Shown here piece by piece: positions 3,180 to 31,608 of a DNA stretch of 31,608 nt. Every line of letters starts with the position of its first letter. Position 1 is the first letter of the stretch. The notes under the pieces are model-generated. The model saw only the letters and a list, made by a program, of their open reading frames with translations. It was not told where the DNA came from and searched no databases. The translations under genes were made by a program, and so were the position numbers. Source of the DNA: a virus; the IMG/VR virus record IMGVR_UViG_3300043410_001755, positions 1 to 31,608 of that record; one strand, written 5' to 3'.

Positions 3180-3404
3180 ATGGCGCAAGACAAATTTACA
3201 TCAGAAGAATTTTTAGAAATGAAACAAATTCTATCTCAAATCACAACAAGAATACCTGAAGATAAAATGCCCTATATATGGGATAAGTATTTGAGAATAA
3301 CAGGAACACAAGAACCAAAACCATGTGGATGCCAGAGTGCAGCAGGTTTATGGATTAAGGCTATAGATACAATAAGAAAATATATATCCGATAATGATAA
3401 TTAG
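3180..3404 (+). CDS. Small CGC-containing protein, function unknown
   Basis: The 74-aa protein is helical, with ~45 residues of amphipathic helix followed by PKPCGCQSAAGLWIKAIDTIRKYI. A CGC motif followed by an aliphatic helix is typical of short proteins encoded just upstream of terminase in Bacteroidetes phages. Its last 11 bases overlap the start of the 3394 gene, indicating translational coupling with the sigma-like protein. Function is unknown. Confidence 0.65.
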   Translation: MAQDKFTSEEFLEMKQILSQITTRIPEDKMPYIWDKYLRITGTQEPKPCGCQSAAGLWIKAIDTIRKYISDNDN

Positions 3405-3954
3405 TGGAAGTTTAGATATAGATTTAAGAGAAGAAACTAATAGAAGATTAGAACATCTTTATGTTTCTCATAGTAAATGGTTAGAAAGTGTTTCATTCAA
3501 AATAACAAAGGATAAGAATCAATCGGAAGAGCTTATCGGAGAACTATATCTTTATTTAGCGGAAAGACCAAACCCGAATCTGTGGTACGCTACTTCATTC
3601 AATTTGATGTATTTAAGAAGTTTTATTCATTCCCGTTTTATCAATAGTAAGAAAAGAGATAATAAAATGTCATCTTTATCTGAATACAATGATGTTCCAT
3701 ATGAAGAATATGATGAAGAAGGTGATGATAGATTTGAACAATGTTGGAATATGATGATGGATGAATTAGAATCACTTAAAAAACAAAAAGGTTGGAGTAG
3801 TGCAAAACTATTTGAATTATACTACTTTGGAGATACAACATTAGAGAAATTAAGTTCAGAAGTCGGAATATCCCTATCAACAACCTTTATGAATGTTAAG
3901 AAGACAAAAGAACATTTAAAGAAAACACTTCCCAATCCATTTAAGCGAGATTAA
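3394..3954 (+). CDS. Sigma-factor-like regulatory protein
   Basis: The 186-aa protein has the build of an ECF-type sigma factor. Residues ~17-90 resemble a region 2 helical bundle (HSKWLESVSFKITKDKN then EELIGELYLYLAER, then SFIHSRFINSKKRDNK). After an acidic linker (~95-115), residues ~135-178 form a region 4-like helix-turn-helix (LFELYYFGDTTLEKLSSEVG then ISLSTTFMNVKKTKEHL). It overlaps the previous gene and is the last gene before the terminase operon, the expected place for a late transcription activator. It may recognise the GTTATAGTA motifs found before several late genes, but this is inference. It could instead be an HTH regulator without sigma activity. Confidence 0.6.
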   Translation: MIISGSLDIDLREETNRRLEHLYVSHSKWLESVSFKITKDKNQSEELIGELYLYLAERPNPNLWYATSFNLMYLRSFIHSRFINSKKRDNKMSSLSEYNDVPYEEYDEEGDDRFEQCWNMMMDELESLKKQKGWSSAKLFELYYFGDTTLEKLSSEVGISLSTTFMNVKKTKEHLKKTLPNPFKRD

Positions 3955-30075: not shown

Positions 30076-30203
30076 TGGCAAAAAGTAGTAAAAGTGGAAG
30101 CACACAAAAGATATCGTTTGGTAAAAGAGGCGTGGGAAAAGCGAAGAAAAGTTATGGCCCAAAAGAACAAAAACCAAAACGATATAGAGGTCAAGGCCGT
30201 TGA
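30075..30203 (+). CDS. Small basic phage protein
   Basis: A 42-aa protein starting on the last base of the previous stop (TAATG). The sequence SGSTQKISFGKRGVGKAKKS then YGPKEQKPKRYRGQGR is of a type I know as common in Bacteroidetes phages: Lys/Arg/Gly-rich and ending in K-x-Y-R-G-Q-G-R. It likely binds nucleic acid or a virion surface; no function is known. The overlapping frame at 30094-30279 is a shadow. It is the last gene before the terminator at 30301. Confidence 0.75.
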   Translation: MAKSSKSGSTQKISFGKRGVGKAKKSYGPKEQKPKRYRGQGR

Positions 30204-30447: not shown

Positions 30448-30573
30448 TTAATGTTAAAACATAATTAAGTGTATAAATAAAAAGTCTCGTATCATTTTAG
30501 TGCCATCTTTATGATACATCTATTTAGATTAATTCCAATTCAGAGTGAGTTTTAAGACTTCTCACTCTTTTTT
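30448..30573 (+). ncRNA. Candidate small RNA, about 125 nt
   Basis: The segment has a promoter at its start and a strong terminator at its end and no credible coding frame (the only ATG near the start gives five codons). It contains a hairpin with perfect 7-bp stem GTATCAT (30489-30495) and ATGATAC (30511-30517) with a 15-base loop, then the terminator hairpin 30542-30568. This is the typical layout of a trans-acting small RNA. Its target is unknown. Start is inferred from the -7 element and is approximate. Confidence 0.5.
30542..30573 (+). terminator. Terminator of the small RNA
   Basis: AGAGTGAG (30542-30549) pairs perfectly with CTCACTCT (30561-30568) around an 11-base loop, followed by T's to 30573. 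Confidence 0.85.
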
Positions 30574-30655: not shown

Positions 30656-30686
30656 TTTGATATTACAAATATTTTTCTTATATTTG
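30656..30686 (+). promoter_or_regulatory. Bacteroidetes-type promoter for the structured RNA operon
   Basis: TTTG (30656-30659), 19 bases, then TATATTTG (30679-30686): a full consensus match, as at 1511-1541. It would start transcription near 30692, about 345 bases before the first coding start at 31037. Confidence 0.75.
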
Positions 30687-30691
30687 TAACA

Positions 30692-31000
30692 CTTCAATTA
30701 AGATAATCTCACCAATTATCTGAATCCGGAAACTATTAAGGAGATTGATAGACAGTAGAAGTCGTAGTTGAAATACTACCGGAGTGATACCGATGAGGGA
30801 ACTGGCCGATAATATTCTATGGTAGGGGACTCGTTTCAAGTAGAGAAGAGTTTACATTTATCCTATCACCCATCTATTTGTTTTACACTACATTGGTAGT
30901 ATTGACAAATGAGTATTATGGGACTGATAGGATAGGTGGATCTGATTCAAATAAAGACACTATAAGCAGCTTAGCAGTAAAGCAAAAAAATAAGTGTAAA
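30692..31000 (+). ncRNA. Long structured RNA or leader of unknown class
   Basis: Downstream of a consensus promoter, this non-coding stretch is clearly GC-richer (about 30776-30835) than the AT-rich genome. Stems seen: AGATAAT (30701-30707) with ATTATCT (30715-30721); GTAGT/ACTAC around 30765-30779; and a long nested hairpin at 30859-30934 with 10 bp (TATCCTATCA/TGATAGGATA), 5 bp (CCCAT/ATGGG), 6 bp (ATTTGT/ACAAAT) and 5 bp (ACTAC/GTAGT) segments around an ATTG loop. ACACT (30958-30962) and AGTGT may close another. Long-range pairs GAATC (30722) with GATTC (30944) and CACC (30710) with GGTG (30935) are possible. No terminator follows, so it leads into 31037. Class not recognised; the 3' end is approximate. 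Confidence 0.6.
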
Positions 31001-31036
31001 TTGTTATTATATATACAGATTTACATATATATTGTT

Positions 31037-31174
31037 ATGAAAGAAGAAGTATTAGAAGATTGGTTTGATTTAGACTTATTTGATGTAGGTTTAGACGAAT
31101 ATCTTACACAACTATTTAAAGAGTTGGATGAAAGAGATATATCTAATGCTAATAACTTTCAGATAATGGAATAA
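31037..31174 (+). CDS. 45-aa acidic protein downstream of structured RNA
   Basis: I choose ATG 31037 and reject the longer frame from 30878, which would run through the RNA hairpin and has unlikely residues. The 45-aa product (KEEVLEDWFDLDLFDVGLDE, then YLTQLFKELDERDIS) is very acidic, with about 15 Asp/Glu and few basic residues, and looks helical. Small acidic proteins near phage early promoters are often host-protein inhibitors or DNA mimics, but that is inference. It is the first coding gene after the structured leader. Confidence 0.6.
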   Translation: MKEEVLEDWFDLDLFDVGLDEYLTQLFKELDERDISNANNFQIME

Positions 31175-31201: not shown

Positions 31202-31591
31202 ATGAAAAAAGTTTTATTAATGTCTATAACTGATAAAGAAAATTGGTTATCAGAGTTACAAACCATAAGAGAAATATATATTCCTGAAGGAAAAATATTA
31301 GTTTTTTGTAATAGATTTGATGAGGAAGATAATAAAGTTTGGATTACATTTAATACAAAAATAGAATATAATTTCAAAAAGGATAATATAGTAAGAATCA
31401 ATAGAAATAAAGAAACAAATACTCTATTCAGTATAAATGCTATAAATGAATTAAGTGTTAGAGAAACGGGTAAAGTTGATAAAGGATTTATACCCAATTG
31501 GAATGAATTTGAGAATTGTTTACTAATAAAAAATTTAACAGGTTTGGTAGTTATTCCGACAAAATTAATGAATGTTGTTAATATAAATTAA
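31202..31591 (+). CDS. Hypothetical protein (complete copy of split gene)
   Basis: The 129-aa protein has an alpha/beta look: KKVLLMSITDKENWLSELQT, IYIPEGKILVFCNRFDEEDN, VWITFNTKIEYNFKKDNIVR, SINAINELSVRETGK, and an aliphatic C-terminal strand (LTGLVVIPTKLMNVVNIN). There is one acidic loop and two Cys. No enzymatic motif. Together with the 45-aa acidic gene upstream it forms the operon behind the structured RNA; after wrap-around the transcript ends at the terminator at 209-249. Family not recognised. Confidence 0.7.
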   Translation: MKKVLLMSITDKENWLSELQTIREIYIPEGKILVFCNRFDEEDNKVWITFNTKIEYNFKKDNIVRINRNKETNTLFSINAINELSVRETGKVDKGFIPNWNEFENCLLIKNLTGLVVIPTKLMNVVNIN

Positions 31592-31608
31592 AATATTGTT
31601 GTAGGTTT
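31448..31608. repeat. Right copy of 161-bp terminal direct repeat
   Basis: Matches 1-161 at 160 of 161 positions, the exception being G at 31574 against T at 127. It covers the 3' part of the 31202 gene and the first bases of the following gap. Confidence 0.95.

Follow-up and report, generated by a model that had tools for sequence, protein, structure and literature searches.

The window analysed here, i.e. the whole stretch of 31,608 nt, raises the question of how a phage starts its replication when no initiator gene is recognisable in its genome, and of what a folded non-coding region at 30689-30960 is doing after a late operon that closes with tail-end genes at 30203 and ahead of small early genes starting at 31037. 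The preliminary description of this DNA recognised a structured, promoter-driven RNA, which has stood, and suggested as its role either a regulatory leader, which is not supported, or a processed stand-alone RNA; it missed that the RNA, as comparison of the genomes indicates, sits where relatives keep a gene of replication-initiator type (the initiator slot).

The phage and its family

The record is a complete circular genome, since positions 1-161 are repeated at 31448-31608 with one mismatch, giving a circular map of ~31,447 bp; end repeats had not been flagged for the record despite this 161-bp direct terminal repeat. The source is a Bacteroidota phage of freshwater type, belonging to a large, almost uncultured family of phages of ~32 kb. 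A capsid scan gave at least 600 candidate stretches of the family, 595 of them confirmed among the matches listed, and the nearest cultured relatives are the Nonlabens phages P12024S/L with a capsid identity of 27%. PHROG scans of the main ORFs of the window gave structural, nuclease and sigma-like matches together with proteins lacking an assigned role, and no replication initiator, helicase, primase or polymerase. The sigma-factor-like protein (3394-3954; phrog_1740, 3.2e-7) is kept throughout the family. One related contig, G011 (IMGVR_UViG_3300043395_001957, 62,622 bases; L032 and L040), has two capsid genes and carries the early genes twice, and is apparently two related phage genomes joined.

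A conserved structured RNA

The region at 30689-30960 is almost certainly a real conserved structured RNA. Four homologues ~260-300 bases in length constitute class A: the window; L010:11612-11907, 92% (91.9%) identical to it; L008:1351-1626, ~80% identical over the RNA; and the diverged L161:825-1085 (R1 E = 1.5e-9). L010 was reached through an exact 23-mer, L008 through its neighbour genes, and L161 with model R1, which was built from the other three sequences. That 91.9% identity of the RNA contrasts with 65-75% for the capsid, portal, protease, holin-like and 129-aa genes of the window and L010, which implies either that the RNA is strongly constrained or that its module was exchanged recently. 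The features of the region are collected in Table 1.

Table 1. Features of the RNA region and of the adjoining early genes in the window
Feature	Position	Strand	Remarks
Bacteroidota-type promoter TTTG-N19-TATATTTG	30656-30686	+	exact match to TTTG-N17..23-TAnnTTTG
Class A structured RNA	30689-30960 (model R1 matches 30689-30986)	+	homologues, covariation, strand preference
Helix 1, AGATAAT/ATTATCT	30701-30721	+	two both-sided changes in three-sequence MAFFT alignment
Long-range closing helix	30722-30730 with 30941-30948 (30722-30948)	+	CG to UA at one pair
Local hairpin GTAGT-TGAAAT-ACTAC	30764-30779	+	L161 counterpart GGTAT-TGAAAT-ATACC
Most conserved primary sequence, GTGATACCGATGAGGGAACTGG	30783-30804	+	also in L161, bar single changes
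Long nested hairpin, helices 6-7	30857-30936	+	26 pairs, small bulges; apical 5-bp stem 30887-30900
AGCA-rich, then very AT-rich 3' tail	30961-31036	+	three AGCA in 90 nt, p ~0.02
45-aa acidic ORF	31037-31174	+	window and L010 only; outside the module in L008 and L161
129-aa gene	31202-31591	+	homologues in L010, L008, G007 and L009

The claim of a real RNA rests on comparative evidence, since fold z-scores by themselves fail to separate the region: it folds with -82.9 kcal/mol (z = -3.0), and RNA-bearing slots, initiator-bearing slots and other intergenic regions of the family give much the same z-scores, which were accordingly rejected as a discriminator. In a three-sequence MAFFT alignment both-sided changes keep 8 of the 84 predicted pairs, including pairs of helix 1 and of the long hairpin. 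Once L161 is aligned to the model, the paired cells amount to 94.6%, both-sided changes are found at 22 pairs as against 7.5 +- 2.2 in shuffles (0 of 500 reach 22), and sliding the partners by 1-3 columns lowers pairing to 32-44%, all of this in an alignment that leans towards the model, the structure having been derived from three of the four sequences. Helix 1 then has both-sided changes in 6 of its 7 pairs, again leaning towards the model, and the closing helix in 3 of 8, with 87.5% of cells paired. The most convincing structural case is helix 7, in which 100% of cells are paired and 5 of 9 pairs show both-sided changes, the apical part of the long hairpin being swapped in L161 for a different, fully paired hairpin. 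The local hairpin at 30764-30779 competes with the outer parts of model helices 4-5, and these outer parts are uncertain; hairpins of its kind, with a background of 0.026 per kb, are also present in G011 (class C, below) and L219. Both stems singled out in the preliminary description exist and carry compensatory changes, the one at 30701-30721 as given and the nested 26-bp hairpin, put at 30859-30934, with slightly wider bounds and its additional apical stem.

The + strand folds better than the - strand in all classes, and paired positions hold 29 G-U against 7 A-C, a count biased by folding of the structure on the + strand; the two together favour an RNA with the same orientation as the genes. 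No open frame is common to the homologues, and stops occur in all six frames of all four, in keeping with the earlier statement that there is no reading frame; compensatory substitutions without a conserved frame are the general marks of a structured non-coding RNA. A 98-aa ORF starting with TTG at 30878 was rejected as a gene of the RNA region, as it merely runs into the 45-aa gene. The local rise in GC described earlier is likewise real: 36.9% in 30690-30960, compared with 21.5% upstream, 24.1% downstream and 31.5% overall.

The promoter had been called full-consensus. This is valid for the Bacteroidota type only, to whose -33/-7 form (TAnnTTTG) it conforms exactly, since as a sigma-70 promoter it scores only 10/12 (TTGATA-N16-TATATT) and the region's nine sigma-70-like matches are no excess over the 7.2 in shuffles. 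In these phages the background of such promoters is ~0.1 per kb on each strand, and the predicted transcript start at ~30690-30693 coincides with the onset of conservation (alignment A1). L008 shares this promoter and its spacing from the RNA; L010 has none at the adjacent position and one ~210 nt upstream (11400). A scan for this promoter form found none on the - strand in any slot.

Rfam 15 at the gathering threshold gave no family match (riboswitches, ribozymes, 6S, tmRNA, GOLLD and ROOL included), agreeing with the preliminary view that no riboswitch or ribozyme is clearly matched, and at a relaxed threshold only a chance snoRNA match on the - strand. R1 found no match in 50 further family records and ~395 Bacteroidota genomes. 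Class A searched against 50,697 phage records gave nothing beyond short matches, almost all of them in the promoter, and apart from such matches classes A-C gave none in phage and plasmid records. Pattern-scan matches in viral contigs beyond the four homologues were coincidental and resemble coding sequence. Among the records searched, class A RNA is rare, and a literature search of partial coverage found no paper on these RNAs.

Contents of the initiator slot

The slot was surveyed in 80 loci around a conserved early gene, and ~40 further records were annotated. Most surveyed loci hold in the slot one of five protein types from unrelated families, four of which have PHROG matches to replication-initiation functions: the DUF1376 type to 'primosomal protein' (5.9e-7 for this match), the Lin1244 type to 'replication initiation protein' (4.6e-28), the KRFTD type to replisome organizer/DnaD-like, and the SYWS type to replication initiation, O-like. 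Slot proteins also match 'replisome organizer DnaA-like' (1.7e-42, 2.1e-43) and, in a type other than Lin1244, 'replication initiation protein' (6.3e-10 and 7.6e-12). The fifth type, DUF6291 (PF19808), lacks an assigned function, is named as an initiator in no library searched and is counted as one by position only; the slot protein of G007 has no family match and is counted through its relatives. Predicted structures were of no help, as the KRFTD-type and DUF6291 proteins gave mean pLDDT values of 53 and 64 with meaningless PDB matches, and the G007 protein gave a model too poor for use.

RNAs of two further classes, both covarying, occupy the same slot in initiator-less phages. Class C (L231, L167, L209, which is G020, L208, and L152, which is G011) shows 13 pairs with both-sided changes as against 3.8 +- 1.5 in shuffles. 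Class B consists of two sequences only (L186 and L204); over 286 nt these are 78% identical and show both-sided changes at 14 pairs. Among complete slots, counted by hand from annotation tables after removal of near-duplicates, 8 have RNA only (class A, B or C: the window, G010, G008, L186, L204, L231, G020 and G011), 29 have an initiator only, none has both, and two (L219, L228) lack a recognised initiator as well as a class A-C RNA (Fisher p = 7e-7, ignoring relatedness).

Two pairs of relatives look, from their alignments, like replacement of one module by another. In the better pair, L161 and L163 share a downstream block of 2,035 bp (96.8% identity) and one of 105 bp just upstream (88.6%). 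The stretch enclosed by the two blocks carries, in L161, the class A RNA plus a 164-aa ORF, which moves along with the RNA, and in L163 a DUF6291 gene plus a small ORF. L008 and G007 share a downstream 121-aa gene (94% aa identity), which is preceded by the RNA and an 84-aa gene in L008 and by the initiator and a homologous 80-aa gene in G007.

Other origin signals were also sought. Iterons in initiator genes follow no clear common pattern, and GC skew shows no clear switch at the slot, being uninformative where all genes run in the same direction. No consistent DnaA boxes are found near the window RNA. Perfect pairs of the DnaA box TTATCCACA with 11-bp spacing lie near or in the slot at G020:28687+28698, G038:1394+1405, L204:2429+2440 and L219:1317+1328, i.e. 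in initiator-bearing as well as RNA-bearing relatives.

Possible function of the RNA

A complete genome without a recognisable replication gene, close relatives that carry a protein initiator, and a conserved RNA at the initiator's place find their best explanation in an RNA that would start replication by means of host enzymes. That the RNA module replaces the initiator gene is fairly probable; that the RNA is an RNA-based replication origin standing in for the initiator protein is a reading on which the judgement is evenly balanced. Slightly less assured is the broader proposal of a family-wide plug-in slot, which in most members would hold one of several unrelated initiator-type proteins and in the others a structured RNA (at least three classes) and no phage replication protein, the modules being exchanged by recombination. 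ColE1-like priming specifically is offered only as a tentative suggestion.

The proposed events would begin with transcription of the 260-300-nt RNA by host RNA polymerase from the 30656 promoter, as promoter and onset of conservation suggest, and with folding of the transcript into the closed multi-helix domain that the covariation shows. The folded RNA may then remain on, or go back to, its template in the AT-rich sequence that follows directly downstream, and there prime DNA synthesis or open the duplex for the host helicase and polymerase. It would in this way do the job of the initiator protein, presumably the same function, so that phages carry RNA or initiator and not both; exclusivity and syntenic exchange suggest that the module passes between phages by recombination.

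The slot lies in a variable region in which many small genes differ between relatives, and in several class C and D units a terminator-like hairpin precedes the next gene, so that these look like stand-alone RNAs, complete from promoter to terminator; large structured phage RNAs without a known function also exist (GOLLD, ROOL; PMC12286853). This would suit a structured RNA acting in trans from its own promoter in another early function (e.g. host transcription control or defence), and lying by coincidence where the genome exchanges most readily. Such an RNA is nevertheless an unlikely explanation, since it does not account for the absence of these RNAs from all initiator-bearing slots, for the lack of precisely the initiator in RNA carriers, or for the start of replication in the complete window genome. 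Still more doubtful is regulation in cis, with the RNA serving the early operon from 31037 as a leader of riboswitch, attenuator or processive antitermination type. The RNA does form part of the 5' leader of the genes that follow it in the same orientation, no terminator was found ahead of ATG 31037, as was originally remarked, and long structured antitermination leaders are a precedent. However, a leader is made less likely by the downstream genes, which differ between the four homologues (45 aa and 129 aa in the window and L010, 84 aa and 121 aa in L008, 164 aa and 110 aa in L161), the 129/121-aa gene being found in G007 behind a protein initiator with the RNA absent, and by the hairpins that set class C and D RNAs off from the next gene. 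No association with one downstream gene or pathway, as expected of a leader or riboswitch, is found, and the earlier idea that the RNA mainly regulates the two small genes after it is not supported by this evidence.

Compensatory changes would also arise in single-stranded DNA, and a DNA-level element, i.e. a replication origin or a primosome-assembly/single-strand origin that folds as ssDNA, would fit the position at the initiator slot and the tandem TTATCCACA boxes near it in four relatives. The strand preference and G-U excess (biased as stated), the promoter directly upstream with conservation beginning at its predicted start, and the absence of such boxes near the window RNA make this element improbable. 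Least credible, indeed very improbable, is an unrecognised small protein beside the RNA as the true initiator, with the RNA merely its regulator: L161 and L186 do have a 164-aa ORF after the RNA, and other small ORFs take this place elsewhere, but no ORF is common to all RNA carriers, no family match points to replication, and the 164-aa family stands, by position and sequence, beside a DUF1376 initiator in G002 (166 aa).

Relation to known systems

If the RNA is an origin of this kind, its logic looks, by analogy, the same as in the mycobacterial cluster A prophages, which are either of a RepA or of a non-RepA type (Wetzel et al. 2020, PMC7157519). In the latter an ncRNA-expressing region is needed for extrachromosomal replication, its necessity and sufficiency were shown, and the authors termed these the first RNA-based prophage systems (PMC7157519). 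In both cases relatives divide between those with an initiator protein and those with an ncRNA region, no initiator gene is recognisable in the RNA type, and a short intergenic segment encodes the RNA, its transcription being predicted here. Unlike the mycobacterial prophages, the present phages belong to Bacteroidota and not Actinobacteria, the RNA takes the very slot of the initiator, neither parABS nor signs of a lysogenic plasmid or extrachromosomal prophage are seen, and the role is read from genome comparison. Homology to the mycobacterial RNA regions was not found among the 50,697 phage records, a weak test across such distant groups.

ColE1 RNA II shares the proposed logic, in that replication begins from a folded transcript through host enzymes, the element encoding no initiator of its own, and is at most a functional analogue, not a homologue: here no antisense promoter is found (Bacteroidota type scanned), there is no Rfam match, no plasmid relatives are found, and a G-rich/C-rich hybrid or an RNase H site would be hypothetical. 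Phage T4 encodes its own replisome, and no conserved folded domain is required of its origin transcript, features that set it apart from the present case. What the T4 R-loop origins, where phage replication is primed by a transcript at the origin (review PMC3016281), would have in common with these phages is transcript-primed replication, as proposed here. With GOLLD, ROOL and OLE the present RNA shares structure, phage carriage in some of them and an open function. These RNAs are longer than the ~260-300 nt seen here, and the present RNA further differs in having no Rfam match and another gene setting. GOLLD, ROOL and OLE are large ornate structured RNAs, some of them in phages (PMC12286853).

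RNA-only origins have so far been found mainly in ColE1-like plasmids and, in phages, in mycobacterial prophages. The proposed reading, if true, would extend them to another bacterial phylum and would mean that protein and RNA initiators swap in one slot of close relatives, which would supply natural near-isogenic pairs for studying how an RNA does an initiator protein's job, and would help to explain complete small phage genomes without a recognisable replication gene.

Additional hairpins and tails

A UGARAU hairpin loop recurs in class A, G011 and L219. A single superfamily of classes A-D based on this loop is suggestive only, as the motif was defined after A and C had been seen. Terminator-like hairpins with TGCCAT in the loop are found at L167:3547-3579, L189:6348-6383, L195:1710-1742, L222:852-887, L224:6483-6519, L231:6317-6348 and L219:6129-6188, and a weaker hairpin with a similar loop at 30494-30522 of the window. 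TGCCAT is complementary to ATGGCA, a frequent gene start (Met-Ala) in these phages, and GCCAT lies in such hairpins in 32 of its 206 occurrences, compared with 0-7 for six control pentamers; a start-codon-pairing terminator or regulator is thus possible.

A non-coding region in the partial, initiator-less slot L190:1820-2060, in which six G stand in a row twice and an AGCA tail is present, is possibly another RNA class. Tails rich in AGCA/CAG directly follow several of the RNAs (window 30961-30986, L010, L161, G011, L190 and L219), with up to 4 AGCA per 90 nt versus 0.5 expected, and could be related to primer or primase sites.
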